A program made the position numbers and the translations under genes. Positions 1,854-38,750 of a DNA stretch of 42,050 nt are shown one piece after another (position 1 is the stretch's first letter; every line of letters starts with the position of its first letter). The notes under the pieces were generated by a model. That model was not told the origin of the DNA, made no database searches, and saw nothing but the letters and a program-made list of their open reading frames with translations. Source of the stretch: Flavobacteriales bacterium (GTDB lineage Bacteria > Bacteroidota > Bacteroidia > Flavobacteriales_D > Crocinitomicaceae). The DNA lies in the NCBI GenBank assembly GCA_947453715.1, contig CANGHX010000004.1, positions 1 through 42,050 of the forward strand, given 5' to 3'.

Positions 1854-1892
1854 ATTCAGAATTTCTTCAGAATTGTAAACTAAATTTACAAT
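1854..1892 (+). promoter_or_regulatory. Predicted operator/promoter of the two-component genes: tandem TTCAGAATT repeats and palindrome at the start codon
   Basis: TTCAGAATT occurs twice, at 1855-1863 and 1866-1874, exactly 11 bp apart, the spacing expected when an OmpR-family dimer binds head-to-tail on one helix face. Nineteen bases after the start of the second copy lies TTTA of a -7-like TAAATTTA (1881-1888). An 8-bp perfect inverted repeat, ATTGTAAA (1872-1879) and TTTACAAT (1885-1892), ends directly at the ATG. The same half-site and -7 geometry recurs at 3844-3877. No -33 TTG is found at normal spacing, as expected for an activator-dependent promoter. Binding by the adjacent regulator is inferred. 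Confidence 0.55.
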
Positions 1893-2570
1893 ATGAAGAT
1901 ATTAATTGTCGAGGATGAACAAGAATTAGCAAAATCGATTGCTGCTTATTTATCATCAAATGATTTCGTCTGTGAAGTTGTTAATAGTTATAAATTGGGA
2001 CTAGAGAAGGTGTCAATTTATAATTATGATTGTGTTTTACTTGATTTATCTTTACCTGATGGAAATGGAATCGAAATTCTAAGTCATTTAAAAGAAATTC
2101 ATAAGACAGAAGGTATTATAATTATTTCAGCGAAAGAAACTTTAGACAATCGCATTGAATGTTTTCAAAAAGGTGCCGACGATTATTTAACAAAACCTTT
2201 TCACTTATCCGAATTATTAGTACGAATCCAAGCCTTAATAAGAAGGAAAAACTTTCAAGGTTCTAATGTTATTAAATTCAACGAAATTTCAATAGATTTA
2301 TTAGCAAAAAGCACACAAGTCAATGAGAAAGAAATTGATCTAACAAAAAAAGAATTTGAATTATTATTATTCTTAATTGGTAATAATAATAAAGTATTAT
2401 CAAAAAGTGCAATTGCGGAACATTTATCAGGCGACATGGCTGATATGTTAGATAATCATGATTTCATCTATGCGCATATAAAAAATCTAAAGAAAAAATT
2501 AAACGACTCAAATTGTACAGATTACATCAAAACAGTCTATGGTTTGGGATATAAATGGCAAAATGACTAA
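1893..2570 (+). CDS. OmpR-family two-component response regulator
   Basis: 225 residues. A receiver domain (about 1-115) has the acidic pocket at E7-D8, the phospho-acceptor D51 in the string VLLDLSLPDG, the switch residue S79 and the conserved K101 in YLTKPF. A winged-helix DNA-binding domain (about 127-225) ends in the classic KTVYGLGYKW wing. It is phosphorylated by the kinase encoded immediately downstream, whose start codon overlaps this stop codon by 8 bp (ATGACTAA), indicating translational coupling. Tandem repeats at 1855-1874 suggest autoregulation. The -7-like element lies only four bases before the ATG, so the mRNA may be leaderless. The downstream PepSY-like gene carries the same sites and is a probable target. 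The stimulus is unknown. Confidence 0.95.
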   Translation: MKILIVEDEQELAKSIAAYLSSNDFVCEVVNSYKLGLEKVSIYNYDCVLLDLSLPDGNGIEILSHLKEIHKTEGIIIISAKETLDNRIECFQKGADDYLTKPFHLSELLVRIQALIRRKNFQGSNVIKFNEISIDLLAKSTQVNEKEIDLTKKEFELLLFLIGNNNKVLSKSAIAEHLSGDMADMLDNHDFIYAHIKNLKKKLNDSNCTDYIKTVYGLGYKWQND

Positions 2571-3831
2571 AAAACTTTTACAAAGAACACTAAGGAATTA
2601 CATTGTCTTCTCATTCATTGTATTGATCGTTTCAGCTCCATTATTTTATTTTTTTACTGAAAATCTATATCTTAAAGATGCTGATGAGACATTGTATTTA
2701 AGGCGAAATGAATTTGTTAAGTTTACTATGCCTACAATGAAAAAATCAGATATTTCCATTTGGAATAAAATAAGTAAAGATGGTAAAATTATTAATTTCA
2801 AGAATTCTCACACCAACAATAAATTGTTTTTTGCAACTGAATATGATCATTATACGAAGGAAAATGAACCATATCATGTTCTTGAATCGAAAATATTAAT
2901 TGATAATGAAAAATACACCTTAGTATTAAGAGTAAACTTAATCGAATCTGAAGATTTGATTATAAGCGTATTTTTATTGTTTTCTGTCATTCTCATTTTA
3001 CTATTAACTGGTTTATTCATTATTACGAAAAAACTATCTTCTAATCTTTGGAAACCTTTTTATGATACTTTGAATCAAATCGAACAATTTGAAATAGATA
3101 AACATAAAATTCCTTATTTTTCCGAATCCAAAATAGAAGAATTTCATCGACTGAATGATGCGCTGTCAAAATTAATTGAAAACAATATTATCATTTTCAA
3201 AAGCCAACGAGAATTTGTTGAAAATGCGGCACATGAACTACAAACTCCTTTAGCTATTTTCCAATCAACAATTGACAATCTAATCCAAAACCCAACAATT
3301 TCACAAGATCAATCCGAATTATTAGCCCAACTAAACGATTCTGTAAGTCGATTAAATCGCTTGAATAAGAATTTACTGTTACTATCAAAAATAGATGGAA
3401 ATCAATACAATAGCAATGAATTAGTGTTTTTCCATCGTACAATTGAAAAACAGCTTGAATTTTTCACCGAACAAGCAAAATCAAGAAATATTACAATAAA
3501 TTACAGTATTCAAGAAACAATTCCATTAAAGGCAAATCCAGTTCTAATTGAAATATTAATTAGTAATTTATTTTTAAACGCAATAAAACACAATCACCAA
3601 GATGGTTTTATTGCTATTGAATTAGTAAATAATTCGCTTATTTTTTCCAATTCAGGGCAGACAAAAAAGTTAGACACTGCAAAATTATTTCAACGCTTTT
3701 CTAAAATCAATCCCTCTACTCATGGAAATGGTTTAGGATTAGCTATAATTAAAAAAATTTCAGATATTAATAATTGGTCCATTACATACGATTTTGCAAA
3801 AAACTCTCATTTTTTCACTATAAAATTCTGA
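2563..3831 (+). CDS. Membrane sensor histidine kinase
   Basis: 422 residues from the ATG at 2563. An in-frame ATG at 2539 lies deep in the regulator gene and would add MVWDINGK before the normal n-region, so 2563 is preferred. Two membrane helices (about 14-32 and 133-155) flank a periplasmic sensor of about 100 residues. The HisKA H-box is around H224 (NAAHELQTPLA). In the HATPase_c domain the N-box is LISNLFLNAIKHN (N339) and the glycine box is HGNGLGLAI (about 387-395). It should autophosphorylate on H224 and pass phosphate to D51 of the overlapping response regulator. The periplasmic domain has no recognised ligand-binding motif. The downstream periplasmic PepSY-like protein could modulate it, which is inference from neighbourhood. 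Confidence 0.94.
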   Translation: MTKKLLQRTLRNYIVFSFIVLIVSAPLFYFFTENLYLKDADETLYLRRNEFVKFTMPTMKKSDISIWNKISKDGKIINFKNSHTNNKLFFATEYDHYTKENEPYHVLESKILIDNEKYTLVLRVNLIESEDLIISVFLLFSVILILLLTGLFIITKKLSSNLWKPFYDTLNQIEQFEIDKHKIPYFSESKIEEFHRLNDALSKLIENNIIIFKSQREFVENAAHELQTPLAIFQSTIDNLIQNPTISQDQSELLAQLNDSVSRLNRLNKNLLLLSKIDGNQYNSNELVFFHRTIEKQLEFFTEQAKSRNITINYSIQETIPLKANPVLIEILISNLFLNAIKHNHQDGFIAIELVNNSLIFSNSGQTKKLDTAKLFQRFSKINPSTHGNGLGLAIIKKISDINNWSITYDFAKNSHFFTIKF

Positions 3832-3842
3832 ATAGATTTAAA

Positions 3843-3877
3843 ATTCAAAAAAAATTCAAAATTGTAGACCAACTTTG
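3843..3877 (+). promoter_or_regulatory. Predicted operator/promoter of the PepSY-like gene, same layout as the regulator's own promoter
   Basis: TTCAAAA occurs at 3844 and 3855, again exactly 11 bp apart, followed by AATTGTAGAC and a -7-like CAACTTTG (3870-3877). The TTTG starts 19 bases after the second half-site, the same offset as at 1866/1885. Across about 36 aligned bases the two upstream regions share ATTCA-AA, TTCA-AATTGTA-AC and the final TTT-C. The poly-A between the half-sites here rules out simple carry-over of one repeat sequence. A predicted start of transcription near 3882 gives a leader of about 20 bases. Recognition by the 1893-2570 regulator is inferred. Confidence 0.55.
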
Positions 3878-3903
3878 CCTCATATTAATAAAAACATAAA
3901 ACT

Positions 3904-4320
3904 ATGAAATCTATTACACTATTATTTTTTGTTGGAAGTTTCGCAACAATCTCAATTGGCCAAACAATCAATGAATCCAAAGTTCCAGAAGCAGTAAAAA
4001 AAGCGATGAAGAAAAATTATGCTTCTGTAAAAGAAATTAAATGGGAAAAAGAAGACGGAATGTATGAAGCAGGATTTGAAGTAAATAAGGTTAAAAATTC
4101 AGTTTTACTTGATGCTGAAGGAAATGTTAAAGAAACTGAACATGAAATTTCAATCACAGATTTACCAAAAGCTGTATCTGAATATGTGAAAAAAAATCAT
4201 CCTAAATCAAAAATTATTAGTGCTGCAAAAATAACCGATTCAAAAGGTGTGGTGAAATTTGAAGCTGAAATCAAAGGAAAGGATTTATTCTTCGATTCAA
4301 ATGGAAAATTTATAAAATAA
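3904..4320 (+). CDS. Periplasmic PepSY-like (BLIP-like fold) protein
   Basis: 138 residues with a Sec signal peptide (about 1-20, ending SIGQ). The mature part is two similar halves: VPEAVKKAMKKNY...EAGFEV...LLDAEGNVKE and LPKAVSEYVKKNH...KFEAEI...FFDSNGKFIK, each an amphipathic helix followed by beta strands. This is the duplicated PepSY-like/beta-lactamase-inhibitor-like architecture that in Bacteroidota commonly accompanies two-component systems. It probably sits in the periplasm and binds a protein or ligand; no enzyme motif is present. It lies 72 bp after the kinase and has its own promoter with the regulator's tandem sites, so it is the best candidate regulon member and possible feedback component. 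A terminator-like hairpin follows its stop. Confidence 0.8.
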   Translation: MKSITLLFFVGSFATISIGQTINESKVPEAVKKAMKKNYASVKEIKWEKEDGMYEAGFEVNKVKNSVLLDAEGNVKETEHEISITDLPKAVSEYVKKNHPKSKIISAAKITDSKGVVKFEAEIKGKDLFFDSNGKFIK

Positions 4321-4330
4321 GTATATTGTG

Positions 4331-4361
4331 GTATACTATTCTTAAAAAATAGTATACTTTT
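4331..4361 (+). terminator. Rho-independent-like terminator or attenuator after the PepSY-like gene
   Basis: A perfect 10-bp inverted repeat, GTATACTATT (4331-4340) and AATAGTATAC (4348-4357), with a 7-base loop is followed by TTTT. The stem is AT-rich, so termination may be partial, allowing read-through into the outer-membrane barrel gene 34 bp further on. Confidence 0.6.
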
Positions 4362-4394
4362 AAAAAAAAATATTTTTACAAAAAAGCAATCTTC

Positions 4395-5744
4395 ATGAAA
4401 AATTCAATTCAATTACTATTCGTTTTAGTTTTAACAAATTTTGTTTCAAAAAGTGTTTTAGCTCAAACAGCAACTGATACGCTAAAATTACCTTTTGCAA
4501 TAAGTGATGAAAAAAAATTATCAGATGAAGATTTAGCCAATAAAAAAGAAGGAACTTACGTAACAGGTGTTCCTGATTTAAGTTCTGATCCTATCAATGG
4601 TTTTGGTTATGGTGGAGAAGGTACAATCTATTTTAACGGAAAAAAATCGGATCCTTTTTTCAATTATACTGCTTACAGAGCAAAAATGGATATTGTGCTT
4701 TTTAACACAACAAAACAACAACGAGAAATTAAAATTGCTGTCGATATACCTTATATTTTCAATACGAAATGGCGTTTAAGAGGCGAAGCAGCTTATGAAA
4801 TCAATCCAAACCTTCTTTATTTTGGTATAAATCAATCGACAACTTTACCAAATTTAAGTTACTATCCAAATAGTGATAGTTCTCAAGCAAGAGTCGATAA
4901 TGCTTCTTACCAAAATTATAGCAGCAATTTGATTGGTGCTAATAAGTTATACAATACCTACACAAAACAAGAAGCGATATTGAACTTAAGTATGGAACGT
5001 TCGTTTTTAGAAGGACGTTTGAGAGCTTTAATTGGTTACGAATATGCAGCATTGAAATTAACTCCATTTACTGGAAACTCAATGTTACAAAATGATAATG
5101 CAAAAGGTTTGATTACAGGTGTGGGAAAGAATAATGTTTCCTTTGTTCAAGTGGGTTTGATTTATGATACGCGTGATTTAGAAACGGATCCATCTCAAGG
5201 TTTTTTTGCTGAATTAACGAATGAATTGTCTTTAAAAGCACTTGGTTCTCAATACAACTTCAATAAAACATTTGGACATGTTAATTACTATCATAAATTA
5301 TTGCCAAATGTTTTCAAAAAATTAGTTTTTGCTGGAAGAATTGCAATGGGATACACAGCCGGAAATTCTCCTTTTTACGAATACCAAGATCAATGGAGTT
5401 CTGAAGGAAGTATTGAAGGTCTCGGTGGTGGTGGTACTTTAAGAGGATATAAACAAAGCCGTTATTTAGCTAGAGTAATGCAATTTAGCAATTTCGAATT
5501 AAGATATCGTTTTGCTCAATTCAAATTATTAAACCAACATTTTGCATTAAGTGCCGTTCCTTTTTTTGATTTTGGTGGTGTTTGGGACAATTATTCAAAC
5601 TTCGCTAAACAATTTAAAAACTATCGATACAATGAAGGTTTAGGCCTAAGAGTTGCTTGGAATGTCAATACCATTTTACGTTTTGATTACGCTATTTCAA
5701 AAGAAGATCATCAGTTTTTCTTTAGTTTGGAACATGCGTTTTGA
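4395..5744 (+). CDS. BamA/D15-like outer-membrane beta-barrel protein
   Basis: 449 residues with signal peptide MKNSIQLLFVLVLTNFVSKSVLAQ. The C-terminal two thirds resembles the Omp85/bacterial surface antigen (D15) barrel: the strand VQVGLIYDTRDLETDPSQG, the glycine-rich GLGGGGTLRGYKQSRY (the conserved RGY/RGF of loop L6), FDFGGVWDN, and a final strand ending in phenylalanine (FSLEHAF), the usual BAM-recognition end. There are no clear POTRA repeats in the short N-terminal region (about 60-110), so it is shorter than BamA (about 800) and closer to stand-alone Omp85-like barrels. Placement after the two-component genes suggests an envelope-stress or outer-membrane remodelling role, which is inferred. 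A convergent terminator follows. Confidence 0.8.
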   Translation: MKNSIQLLFVLVLTNFVSKSVLAQTATDTLKLPFAISDEKKLSDEDLANKKEGTYVTGVPDLSSDPINGFGYGGEGTIYFNGKKSDPFFNYTAYRAKMDIVLFNTTKQQREIKIAVDIPYIFNTKWRLRGEAAYEINPNLLYFGINQSTTLPNLSYYPNSDSSQARVDNASYQNYSSNLIGANKLYNTYTKQEAILNLSMERSFLEGRLRALIGYEYAALKLTPFTGNSMLQNDNAKGLITGVGKNNVSFVQVGLIYDTRDLETDPSQGFFAELTNELSLKALGSQYNFNKTFGHVNYYHKLLPNVFKKLVFAGRIAMGYTAGNSPFYEYQDQWSSEGSIEGLGGGGTLRGYKQSRYLARVMQFSNFELRYRFAQFKLLNQHFALSAVPFFDFGGVWDNYSNFAKQFKNYRYNEGLGLRVAWNVNTILRFDYAISKEDHQFFFSLEHAF

Positions 5745-5841: not shown

Positions 5842-8001
5842 CTATTTCCCCTCATTACTCATTAAATGAAAAAAGGAGGTTCCCTCTGACTTTTTACCAG
5901 TTAAGAATTCAACTTGATAGTTAACAAAGTACACTCCGTCAGGACATAATTCATTTTTAAACTTTCCATCCCATTCAAGTTGTGTTTCGGATGATGTAAA
6001 TACTACTTCTCCCCATCGATTAATAATAGTAAAATTCAAAGTTTTATAGTTAGAAAAATTAAGCTTAAAAAAATCGTTAACCTGATCTTGATTTGGTGTA
6101 AAAACATTTGGAATTGATAAATATTGACAAGAATTATCTGTCATAGAAGCTAATGGGTTAAAATTACTTGCTGAAGGATCTGTACATCCACAAATAACAG
6201 CATAAATATTAATACTATCACTGCAAACCCCATTTGATATGATAAATGAAAAAGTGTCCATTTGAGAAGTGAAAATAGAAAAATCATAGTCATTTATTTT
6301 TGTGACTCCAGTTTGTGGATTCCATTGGGTCAAGTTTGGATTACTAGAATTAATAGATATTAAATTATCATTATTTACACAGATCATTTGAGAATTCGAA
6401 CTAATTTCTGTAGGAGGCAAAACATGTATTATTTTTACTATCGTATCAGAAGCAGTTGATGCACAACTTGGTAAATCAGTATAAAGTTGTATTGAGTAAG
6501 TTCCTTCTTGTGTATATGTATAAGTTGGTAAATTCAAAATTGAAGTATCTCCTTGTAAATTTAGAACACCAAAATCCCAATGCCAATGATACGAGGCATT
6601 AGTATCAATAAAATTTGGAACAAGTTGAATACTTTGCCCCAAACAAATACTATCAGATTGCAAATTAATATTTATTTTAATTCCACTATTTATTGGAATA
6701 TAACGCCACATAGCAGAAGAATTGAATTGAGCTGACGACATAATACCTGTAATTTTTGTTTCAAACATCCAGAAATAACCGTTTAAATCCGTCCAATGTG
6801 GTACGCCAAAGCATGATAATTCTGTATTTGTAGAATGGTTACTACTTGGTGAATTTAGAGCTGAGGAAATCCCTTGAACACCATATACTGAATTGTTTTC
6901 CTGTAAATCTCCATCCATCCATGCAAATTGGTCAATTGCTGGATCATAACACCATAGAAATCCTGTCAATACATTATATCCCCAAAATCGGTTACACTCA
7001 TCTTTCCAATTATTTATTTCCTCAATTGATGTAGCTGGTATATTATTTGGAGAGAATTCTCCTAAAGAACTAAAAATTGAAGATGAAATTTGTCCTTGAG
7101 CGCCACCAACCCATGCCCACAGATTAATTGAAGGATCAAATTCCCACATATCACTTAACATTTCTTGAGTGTAATTAGAAAAGCTTCCAAACATATAAAA
7201 TTTTCCATCATCTGATTTCCAATATTGATACGTCCATCTATTACCAGGAGAATTTGAAGGTGAAAAGACACCTTTCATCCCATAATTTGGAGGGATAAAA
7301 CTAGATGAAATTCCATTCATTCTAGTCCATTGATTATTATTCGTATCAAACTTCCACATTATACTCCCATTATATCCATCTAAAAACCAAAGGTAACCTA
7401 AGTCATCAACCCATGAAATTGAAGATTCACCAAAGAAACCAGGATTATTCAAAGGAGAAGATATACCTAATGTACCATCATTTTGAGGGAAATTGCCGTG
7501 CATCCATGCCCATTGATTTAATGAAATACTATATTTCCACATAGAACTATATCCTTCAATACACGATAAAATCCAAAAATCTCCATTTAAATCTACCCAA
7601 CTATTAGTTTGTCCAAATCCAGATGCAGGTGGATTAGTAGTACTTGAAAATTGTCCTAAGGTTCCATAGCTAGCTACACTATTTGTATTGCCTGAACCTT
7701 TCATCCATGTCCATTGATTAGAATTAACATCATACTTCCATAAATTATTGAAATAAATTTGATTATTAATATCCGTACCTCCATACAACCAAAAATTACC
7801 ATTCTGATCTACCCAATTTCTAGATTCGTAAATATATCCCCCTCCTGGTGAATTAGTCGATGATGGAATTCCCTGTGTACCTAAAATTATTGCATCTGAA
7901 GTATTACTTCCACTCATCCAAGTCCATTCTCCTTGAACTTGCGAAAATGAGTATGCGTACATTATCAATGTAACAACAATTAAACTGAACTGTAATTTCA
8001 T
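5842..8001 (-). CDS. Secreted six-repeat kelch-like/PKD protein with T9SS type B sorting domain
   Basis: 719 residues with a signal peptide ending near Y18-SQ. Six repeats of 61-70 residues carry a W-x-W-M-x-G-type signature at positions 27, 97, 164, 225, 295 and 360, each followed by a G-x-x-S-x-x-N-x-P turn and W-x-D-x-x-G-x-F-W; this matches the kelch/galactose-oxidase-like propellers of Bacteroidota. A PKD-like domain covers about 450-525 (HWHWDFG, EGTYSIQLY). A Cys-rich linker GCTDPSASNFNP is at about 605. The C-terminal 90 residues (IPNVFTPNQDQVNDFF, INRWGEVVF, WDGKF, CPDGVYFV) are the gliding-motility-associated CHU_C/type B sorting domain, so PorU/PorV-dependent export to the cell surface is expected. 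It lies 19 bp after the WG-repeat gene, probably in one operon. Ligand unknown. Confidence 0.9.
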   Translation of the reverse strand: MKLQFSLIVVTLIMYAYSFSQVQGEWTWMSGSNTSDAIILGTQGIPSSTNSPGGGYIYESRNWVDQNGNFWLYGGTDINNQIYFNNLWKYDVNSNQWTWMKGSGNTNSVASYGTLGQFSSTTNPPASGFGQTNSWVDLNGDFWILSCIEGYSSMWKYSISLNQWAWMHGNFPQNDGTLGISSPLNNPGFFGESSISWVDDLGYLWFLDGYNGSIMWKFDTNNNQWTRMNGISSSFIPPNYGMKGVFSPSNSPGNRWTYQYWKSDDGKFYMFGSFSNYTQEMLSDMWEFDPSINLWAWVGGAQGQISSSIFSSLGEFSPNNIPATSIEEINNWKDECNRFWGYNVLTGFLWCYDPAIDQFAWMDGDLQENNSVYGVQGISSALNSPSSNHSTNTELSCFGVPHWTDLNGYFWMFETKITGIMSSAQFNSSAMWRYIPINSGIKININLQSDSICLGQSIQLVPNFIDTNASYHWHWDFGVLNLQGDTSILNLPTYTYTQEGTYSIQLYTDLPSCASTASDTIVKIIHVLPPTEISSNSQMICVNNDNLISINSSNPNLTQWNPQTGVTKINDYDFSIFTSQMDTFSFIISNGVCSDSINIYAVICGCTDPSASNFNPLASMTDNSCQYLSIPNVFTPNQDQVNDFFKLNFSNYKTLNFTIINRWGEVVFTSSETQLEWDGKFKNELCPDGVYFVNYQVEFLTGKKSEGTSFFHLMSNEGK

Positions 8002-37172: not shown

Positions 37173-38750
37173 ATGATAAAATCAAAATTATTTTTATTAC
37201 TTATATTCACTTTTGTTTTTCAAAATTATTATTCCCAAGATTACAAAATATTATCTGATAATATTAAATCTTTTAATTCTAAACCTGAAAAAATTGTATC
37301 AATTTTAAAAAAGGAAACAAAAAAACAAATATTCGTTACTAAAGTTATGCCTACAGGAAAGCTTGAAGAACTTGATATTACTGCATTAAAGGAATATAGT
37401 AAATATGATGATGACAAAATTTCAATTTACAGTGACGATTATGAAAATAATATTTTCAAATCAAATAAAATTAACTTACCAAATATTGGAAACAATCAAG
37501 TTAAATATATCAATTCATTTATAAGTAAAGGCAATGCATTTCTTTATAGTTACATAGTAATTGACAAAGAACTAAAAATTTATGCTTCAAAGATCAATCT
37601 TGATTCATTAATCCTTGAAAAACATTATGAAATAGCTACATTTAAAAATGAAAATTTTAATAATATTAAAATTTTCATTAATCAAAGTGAAGACTCTTCA
37701 AAAATATTAGCCACAATATTAAATAGTGAATTATCAAAAAATGAAACATCAATTAAAGAAATAGTTTTTGACTATGAACTCAATAAGCTTTGGTCGAAGA
37801 AAATAATTCTTAATGAAGATTTGGAAGATATATATATAAATAATATTCAAATACTTGACAATGGGAATTCATTTTACTTACTTTCAAAAACTTTAAATTC
37901 AAAAGATGTGAAAGATAGATTAAAAAATCATTTTTCATATTCCAAATTGTATTTTCATGATTATCAAAATGATTTAGATTATTCAAAATTAATTCAAAAT
38001 GAAACTTATAACTTAATGCTTTCTAAAATCATTTTTAATACCAAAAGTAATGAAATTGTGATTCAGACAATGACTTGTAATAACAAGAATCGTTTTTCTG
38101 GATATATCCTAAAGAAAATTAATGTTGAAAATTTTGAAGAAATATCAAATTTTGAAAAAGTTTTTTCAGAAAGCCAAATTGATAATTATACAATATCAAA
38201 AGTATTTAATACTACACAATATTTAAAATGTTTTTATTTAAGAGATTTATTTATTCTTCCAAATGGTAATTTATGCTCAATAATTGAGAATTATTTTGAA
38301 ATAAGTAATTCAACTTATGAATCATTTTTTAGAGGTAATATTATATTATTGAACATGAGTGAAAATGGTGAAATTATTAATGAGAAAATATTGTTTAGAA
38401 GTGAAATTTTAACACACTATGATGGTTCATATGATTTAGGTCTTTTTCTTCATAAAGATAAGGTCAAAATATTAGTGAATGATTGTCCAGAAAATATGGA
38501 AAGTATACAAAAAAATGATAAAACAAAAAGCACTAACTATAAAAATAGTATTATGTATTTGTTAACTTTTGAAAGTGATTTTTCGAATTATAATATTCAA
38601 AAACTAATTCCCGAATTTGAATCAAAAAATCGTTATTCATATATCATGTATCCGAAGAATTTTAGTTTTTATGGTAATAATCTATTTCTATACTATAGCG
38701 TTTATGATAGATATAGAACCATCGAAATAGAGAATGTATTAAACAACTAA
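37173..38750 (+). CDS. Secreted protein of unknown function
   Basis: 525 residues with signal peptide MIKSKLFLLLIFTFVFQNYYSQ. I recognise no domain. The body repeats short strands with Asn/Lys/Glu-rich turns, for example VFDYELNKLWSKKIIL, IQILDNGNSFYLLSKTL, IIFNTKSNEIVIQTMT and LFILPNGNLCSII, which resembles blades of an irregular beta-propeller. There is no T9SS sorting domain, no lipobox and no membrane helix, so it is probably periplasmic. It is AT-richer than the core genes, consistent with fast evolution or acquisition. It is divergent from the 36417-37097 barrel and convergent with the CocE-like hydrolase, overlapping a terminator hairpin at its end. Confidence 0.7.
   Translation: MIKSKLFLLLIFTFVFQNYYSQDYKILSDNIKSFNSKPEKIVSILKKETKKQIFVTKVMPTGKLEELDITALKEYSKYDDDKISIYSDDYENNIFKSNKINLPNIGNNQVKYINSFISKGNAFLYSYIVIDKELKIYASKINLDSLILEKHYEIATFKNENFNNIKIFINQSEDSSKILATILNSELSKNETSIKEIVFDYELNKLWSKKIILNEDLEDIYINNIQILDNGNSFYLLSKTLNSKDVKDRLKNHFSYSKLYFHDYQNDLDYSKLIQNETYNLMLSKIIFNTKSNEIVIQTMTCNNKNRFSGYILKKINVENFEEISNFEKVFSESQIDNYTISKVFNTTQYLKCFYLRDLFILPNGNLCSIIENYFEISNSTYESFFRGNIILLNMSENGEIINEKILFRSEILTHYDGSYDLGLFLHKDKVKILVNDCPENMESIQKNDKTKSTNYKNSIMYLLTFESDFSNYNIQKLIPEFESKNRYSYIMYPKNFSFYGNNLFLYYSVYDRYRTIEIENVLNN

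Follow-up and report, generated by a model that had tools for sequence, protein, structure and literature searches.

Response regulators (RRs) of the OmpR family bind head-to-tail direct repeats with a period of 10-11 bp, and in Proteobacteria the PmrA/BasR and BqsRS/CarRS systems combine direct-repeat boxes with envelope-directed outputs. In Vibrio cholerae, the signal of the DbfQRS system is reported to be outer-membrane stress; DbfQ binds the sensor domain of the kinase DbfS and shifts it to a phosphatase, and the main text of that report names Proteobacteria, Terrabacteria and Fusobacteria, with the string 'Bacteroid' absent from it (PMC12714742). In Porphyromonas gingivalis, porX and porY have been described as orphan genes (PMC4800418), with PorY reportedly signalling to PorX although the two genes are unlinked (PMC4800418, PMC8050853, PMC10951265). 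Here I analyse a locus of a Flavobacteriales bacterium, contained in positions 1 to 42,050 of contig CANGHX010000004.1 (the window, 42,050 nucleotides in all), in which the gene of an OmpR-type RR is followed by those of a PorY-family kinase and a PepSY-like protein, with one direct repeat before the RR gene and a second, similar one before the PepSY-like gene. The locus is probably a self-contained, autoregulated two-component cassette with twin operators, both predicted to serve class II activation by its own RR. A literature search by title and abstract found no paper describing the operator or the cassette (supplements and subscription papers lay outside its scope). The elements concerned are the following, with scores from the matrix described below:

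1855-1872, + strand: operator 1, direct repeat TTCAGAA-N4-TTCAGAA (exact pattern match; matrix score 34.9, rank 1 in the window; kept in many relatives)
1881-1888, + strand: -7 box of the RR promoter, TAAATTTA (TAnnTTTR), with +1 predicted at 1893 if the box spans -12 to -5
1893-2570, + strand: OmpR/PhoB-family RR of 225 amino acids with Response_reg and Trans_reg_C domains and His195 in the recognition helix
2563-3831, + strand: PorY-family membrane histidine kinase of 422 amino acids from the ATG at 2563 (HisKA and HATPase_c; NF052314; model pLDDT 82.5)
3844-3861, + strand: operator 2, direct repeat TTCAAAA-N4-TTCAAAA (matrix score 25.7, rank 2 in the window; position behind the kinase gene conserved)
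3870-3877, + strand: -7 box of operator 2, CAACTTTG, with +1 predicted at 3882 and a leader of about 22 nt before the PepSY-like start
3904-4320, + strand: PepSY-like protein (PF11396, DUF2874) of 138 amino acids, probably periplasmic (Pfam match; model pLDDT 88.7)

The twin repeats and their conservation

The half-sites of operator 1 (TTCAGAA at 1855-1861 and 1866-1872) and of operator 2 (TTCAAAA at 3844-3850 and 3855-3861) both recur with an 11-bp period, and in each case the end of the -7 box, TTTA at 1885-1888 and TTTG at 3874-3877, begins 19 nt past the start of the second half-site. A preliminary description of the locus had given these coordinates, the period and the offset exactly, and its estimate that about two thirds of 36 aligned bases match agrees with the 26 of 36 identical bases counted between 1853-1888 and 3842-3877.

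The full pattern is found without mismatch at operators 1 and 2 only, in the window as in the whole assembly of the source genome (G000; 3,307,677 bases, 92.67% complete). With at most one mismatch the assembly holds 16 matches versus 7 for a reversed-pattern control, and with at most two the window holds five versus 1.71 expected, a count reached by 3 of 100 shuffles. A 38-column matrix was trained on 75 non-redundant sites from relatives (39 of operator 1 and 36 of operator 2), leaving out the window and the locus L029. It ranks the two operators first and second in the window, at 34.9 and 25.7; the best score in 20 window-sized Markov sequences was 19.25, and no place in 3.3 Mb of simulated sequence reached 20.9. 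Real coding DNA outscores the simulation, with two coding sites at 20.9 and 28.0.

The relatives comprised 80 orthologous loci from named genomes and 26 RR matches (the window's own included) in 22 of 60 same-family genomes; L109 and L110 were dropped as duplicates of L029 and L067, and L112 came without upstream DNA. In the 100-bp regions upstream of the RR gene, the operator 1 pattern occurs in 45 of 103 with at most one mismatch and in 74 with at most two, compared with about 0.7% and 6% of Markov versions of these regions; the non-redundant counts are 21 and 33 of 60. The repeat ends 19-22 bp before the start codon in 50 of the 74 regions, 8-9 bp before it in 13, which is the same place with the register shifted by one half-site, and elsewhere in 11. 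Genic controls matched with at most one mismatch in 5.8% of 362 upstream and 11.7% of 308 downstream regions, but since they include the operators themselves (in genes behind operator 2 and genes before the RR gene), this background is overstated. Pairs of TTCA in the 103 regions are spaced by 11 bases in 54 cases and by 10 or 12 in none, so that at the level of sequence the repeat has the head-to-tail arrangement and the 10-11-bp period of OmpR/PhoB operators. Further peaks at spacings 7 (26) and 18 (28) stem from an extra downstream TTCA in many Flavobacterium promoters.

Operator 2 is found behind the kinase stop codon, with at most two mismatches, in 58 of 101 kinase 3' ends (43 of 72 non-redundant ends). 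When the register was set by the repeat alone, across 138 loci and counting sites with a repeat score of at least 12 (87 of operator 1 and 82 of operator 2), TTTG was located 19 nt past the start of the second half-site in 62 of the 82 operator 2 sites. As the -7 box was not used in choosing the register, the recurring offset makes the 19-nt rule a conserved property. The gap between stop codon and repeat is 1-4 bases in 60 of the 82 sites, and 12 in the window. An even sample of the phylum (148 genomes with 34 RR-kinase pairs besides the window's, possibly sharing species with the training set) shows operator 1 in 18 of the 34 pairs at a matrix score of at least 15, operator 2 in 14, either in 22 and both in 10; none of 680 Markov regions reached that score for operator 1, and none of 680 for operator 2.

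The motif is thus far above chance for AT-rich DNA in the genome scan, by matrix and against simulated sequence, and many relatives, but not all of them, keep both sites at the same position and spacing. This comparative evidence supports the core of the preliminary description, that the RR would drive both itself and the PepSY-like gene, and the twin-operator layout very probably reflects a genuine self-reinforcing circuit and not a chance likeness.

Several observations weigh against this reading. At two mismatches or fewer, 29 of the 103 RR upstream regions and 43 of the 101 kinase 3' ends lack the repeat, and 12 of the 34 loci of the phylum sample have neither operator at a matrix score of 15; among those 12, a TTCC form is clear in L217 alone, and no repeat stands out in the others. 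The layout, though common, is therefore not universal. Operator 1 is absent from the sister genome G058 (locus L067). Operator 2 of the window is the weaker match, with a run of A between its half-sites and a CAnnTTTG box. Finally, the training sites of the matrix were selected by at most two mismatches to the pattern first described, which biases the half-site columns towards that pattern, and the matrix ranking is therefore not fully independent.

Promoter geometry and the proposed binding protein

In Flavobacterium psychrophilum, the sigma-A box TAnnTTTG is reported to span -12 to -5 (PMC9723704). By this rule the repeat of operator 1 covers -38 to -21 of the RR promoter, and the predicted +1 of the RR mRNA is the A of its start codon at 1893. 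Because the two coincide, the simplest reading is that the RR mRNA is leaderless, a predicted property that relatives seem to keep, since 26-28 nt separate the start of the second half-site from the RR start codon in 70 of 87 operator 1 sites. At operator 2, the first ATG downstream, which need not be the gene start, follows at 40-60 nt in 57 of 82 sites. An RR mRNA that starts at its own AUG would be predicted in a group with few leaderless mRNAs, as the leaderless share reported for F. psychrophilum is 5.5% of the mRNAs examined (PMC9723704), and the transcripts of F. johnsoniae are reported to be mostly leadered (PMC6847099).

In many Flavobacterium RR promoters (e.g. L036 and L055-L059) the box is TAAATTGC, a fit to the shorter SM5 motif TAnnTTGY, which PMC9723704 ascribes most likely to an alternative sigma factor; for these promoters the box rule would place +1 one base inside the ATG. 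Operator 2 promoters, by contrast, have TTTG, and autoregulation and output promoters may use different sigma factors.

I propose that the membrane kinase would sense a change in the envelope and phosphorylate the RR encoded just before it. The TTCA-N7-TTCA repeat, which covers about -38 to -21 and takes the place of the -33 element, would then hold two phosphorylated RRs in head-to-tail order, and these would recruit RNA polymerase to the TAnnTTTR-like -7 box (class II activation). Positive autoregulation would follow from operator 1, before the RR gene, and the output from operator 2, before the PepSY-like gene, with the D15 barrel gene and a distant DUF347 gene described below probably also targets.

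The RR has a receiver and a winged-helix Trans_reg_C domain, at 92.4 and 65.8 bits, both over their cut-offs, and its repeat accompanies it in Flavobacteriaceae, Sphingobacteriaceae, Chitinophagaceae, Leadbetterellaceae and Cyclobacteriaceae. The half-site letter also differs with residue 195 of the recognition helix. Counting single exact sites only, with 13 multi-reading sites and one without the residue set aside, regulators with His195 have TTCA/TTCA at 78 of 101 sites and TTCC/TTCC at none, and those with Gln195 have TTCC/TTCC at 9 of 11, TTCC/TTCT at the other 2 and TTCA/TTCA at none. Two points count against making much of this pairing. A looser site rule blurs it, as Gln then occurs with three TTCA/TTCA-type sites and His with four TTCC/TTCC-type sites, and the tree, whose bootstrap had not converged, needs one His/Gln change only; the association is therefore suggestive rather than a repeated co-change, and common descent alone could explain it. 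Together, the linkage across distant taxa and the association of His/Gln with TTCA/TTCC point to the RR as the binder of the operator.

Alternatively, another regulator could bind the repeat as its operator and control the whole cassette, while the RR itself acts elsewhere. The orthologous RR loci that lack the repeat would fit this explanation. However, the repeat tracks the RR across five families, half-site letter and recognition-helix residue differ together, and the motif was not found at the seven closest full-length paralogous RR loci of the source genome (L002-L008, matrix scores of at most 6.0), so that I consider a foreign regulator improbable.

Equally unlikely, in my view, is negative autoregulation, in which the RR would occupy the -33 region as a repressor and keep polymerase out until relieved by the kinase, even though the predicted -38 to -21 position of the repeat would also be a possible seat for a repressor. 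By eye, no -33 TTTG was seen at the expected place in either promoter, and such a promoter would need an activator more than a repressor. Moreover, class II activators typically bind at a set distance from the -7 box, and the distance between repeat and box is fixed here. A third alternative is that AT-rich intergenic DNA produced the similarity by chance, for which one could cite the shuffles that equal the window count at two mismatches and the two chance-looking coding sites at 20.9 and 28.0. Sequence and spacing are conserved in relatives, however, and the matrix places the two sites at ranks 1 and 2 in the window, which argues strongly against chance and leaves it a negligible probability.

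Output genes and further targets

Behind operator 2, the PepSY-like protein matches PF11396 at 46 bits (cut-off 28.3), and its model matches solved structures of DUF2874 proteins from Bacteroides and of BLIP-like periplasmic proteins (4hbr, 4k61, 4ipb and 4fr9) with template modelling scores of 0.60-0.71 (query-normalised). Its N-terminus looks signal-like by eye, and the protein is probably secreted to the periplasm. By analogy with DbfQ in Vibrio, it is a possible feedback partner of the kinase: the PepSY-like protein may bind the sensor domain of the kinase and damp it, and so close a negative loop. Two further elements follow:

4330-4358, + strand: AT-rich terminator-like hairpin with an 11-bp stem, between the PepSY-like and D15 genes (-9.8 kcal/mol, z -3.95)
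4395-5744, + strand: DUF5982/Omp85-family outer-membrane barrel (D15; profile matches), a probable further output

The hairpin was equalled in stability by 1 of 200 shuffles, and the longer stretch 4318-4394 has a z of -2.18. In relatives, the D15 gene lies directly behind operator 2 in L070, L074, L076, L082 and L189, and it follows PepSY or PepSY-DUF347 in L067 and L029. D15 is thus a target in relatives and probably a further output in the window, reached either by read-through of the hairpin or from a promoter of its own, both of which are possible. The preliminary description had suggested that the circuit may include the barrel by read-through; its inclusion is borne out by these relatives, and read-through as the route falls outside that support. 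In L070, a third operator copy (7629; matrix score 33.4) is located behind D15 and before a sulfatase-like gene, so the operator can recur along the cassette. Beyond the barrel gene of the window, at 5842-8001 on the - strand, a 719-amino-acid protein with kelch-like repeats and a C-terminal CHU_C type IX secretion signal domain is encoded.

Which gene comes first behind the kinase was tallied for 81 loci (80 named and the window), as the first open reading frame (ORF) of at least 70 amino acids within about 250 bp, operator not required. It encodes an OMP_b-brl_3/TonB-receptor-like barrel in 37 loci, a PepSY-like protein in 23, D15/DUF5982 in 4, PAP2 in 2, a sulfatase-like protein in 2, a TolC-like OEP in 1 and another protein in 6, with none in the remaining 6; 69 of the 81 are of envelope type, and in 14 loci PepSY is followed by a barrel. 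The phylum sample has PepSY behind the kinase in 4 of 34 loci (L186, L211, L214 and L217) and D15 in 1 (L189), and nine other downstream proteins scanned from it were cytochrome b561 (2), sulfatase (2), PAP2 (2), barrels (2) and OEP (1). Because the gene behind operator 2 varies in this way, the cassette looks, from gene order, like a portable, autoregulated unit with interchangeable, mostly envelope-type outputs. A non-envelope output is seen in L095 (5943-7286), where the gene behind the kinase is that of glutamyl-tRNA reductase (hemA), with a zero-mismatch repeat close to its start. In L197 (892-1551) and L199 (2137-2802), cytochrome b561 (PF01292) comes after the kinase, and a matrix scan found operator 2 at neither.

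A search of the source assembly with at most three mismatches gave a third site at G000:C225:4603, intergenic, with a matrix score of 27.0, a correctly placed TTTG and an ATG behind it. Its gene encodes a DUF347 membrane protein and is cut by the contig end. DUF347 is present in 3 of 12 genomes of the genus; in the sister genome G009 (locus L029) it stands between PepSY and D15, and in a second sister genome, G454, it follows a D15 tail that is 74% identical to the window D15 over 47 residues, with no operator of its own found in the stretch available there. The distant DUF347 gene is probably a further target. Other candidates were rejected: window 37982-38015 (20.9) and G000:C27:12725 (28.0), which fall within ORFs of 525 and 411 amino acids and are judged to be chance; C19 (13.9), C51 (10.9) and the other one-mismatch matches, as coding or low-scoring; and of the three-mismatch matches C117 (19.5) and C198 (16.1), which overlap ORFs of 450 and 173 amino acids, and C8 (10.5) and C147 (4.9), for their low scores.

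The kinase and comparison with known systems

The first 8 bp of the kinase gene, whose ATG start at 2563 was checked, are also the last of the RR gene. Searched as 2566-3828, that is with the first Met left off, the kinase scores 417.4 bits against NCBIfam NF052314 (T9SS_HK_PorY, cut-off 350) and is a member of that family; a fold comparison of its model is informative for the catalytic core, the sensor domain being barely covered. Among 395 genomes of the phylum, 98 kinases pass the PorY cut-off (two rows below it were dropped), and beside 94 of them this RR is encoded on the same strand, at most 200 bp upstream, with a median gap of 12; for the remaining four, the RR is found at 214-2584 bp. 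RR matches were taken to an E-value of 2.8e-54, and 20 weaker ones were excluded.

The likeness to PorX/PorY of P. gingivalis is that the window kinase passes the family cut-off, P. gingivalis PorY itself being taken as a member from the name of the family. The difference is that its partner PorX is unlinked, whereas the window kinase adjoins an OmpR-type RR directly upstream and is thus no orphan of the kind reported for PorY. Like PorX, a PglZ-domain protein encoded elsewhere in the source genome (G000:C1) has a receiver domain. I offer it tentatively, and with some doubt, that PorY-family kinases natively serve this OmpR-type RR in a portable, self-activating envelope cassette with a leaderless RR mRNA and interchangeable outer-membrane outputs, and that the orphan PorY-to-PorX line of P. 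gingivalis would be a rewired derivative that lost its own regulator. The view of PorY as an orphan kinase of type IX secretion becomes a testable question. Beyond the preliminary description, it is new that the kinase belongs to the PorY family, that the RR mRNA is likely to be leaderless and that a third target is probable. The analysis also supplies predictions of operator, promoter geometry and targets for a widespread two-component cassette of Bacteroidota.

The RR shares its family with those of PmrA/BasR and BqsRS/CarRS, and BasR comes second among its PDB matches, but an identity as PmrA was rejected (NF007928, 153.5 bits versus a cut-off of 330), and these proteobacterial systems differ in half-site sequence, promoter type and output genes. 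RprXY of Bacteroides and Porphyromonas is likewise an OmpR-family system of Bacteroidota, and an identity as RprY was also rejected (NF051850, 114.1 bits versus 370). The closest working analogue is DbfQRS, in which a small periplasmic PepSY protein is encoded with the RR and kinase, as here, where the PepSY-like gene stands beside both, and in which the promoter is likewise reported to be autoregulated (PMC12714742). A difference that counts against the parallel, and with it against the circuit proposed here, is that DbfQ is encoded upstream in one operon, whereas the PepSY-like gene of the window is downstream, with an operator and a -7 box of its own (PMC12714742 for DbfQ). In further contrast to DbfQ, the window protein is of the PF11396 PepSY_like/DUF2874 family, and many relatives have other genes in its place. 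The kind of system is thus a known one, an autoregulated OmpR-type system with a PepSY-type partner, and what is new is its Bacteroidota form, with twin operators and exchangeable outputs.

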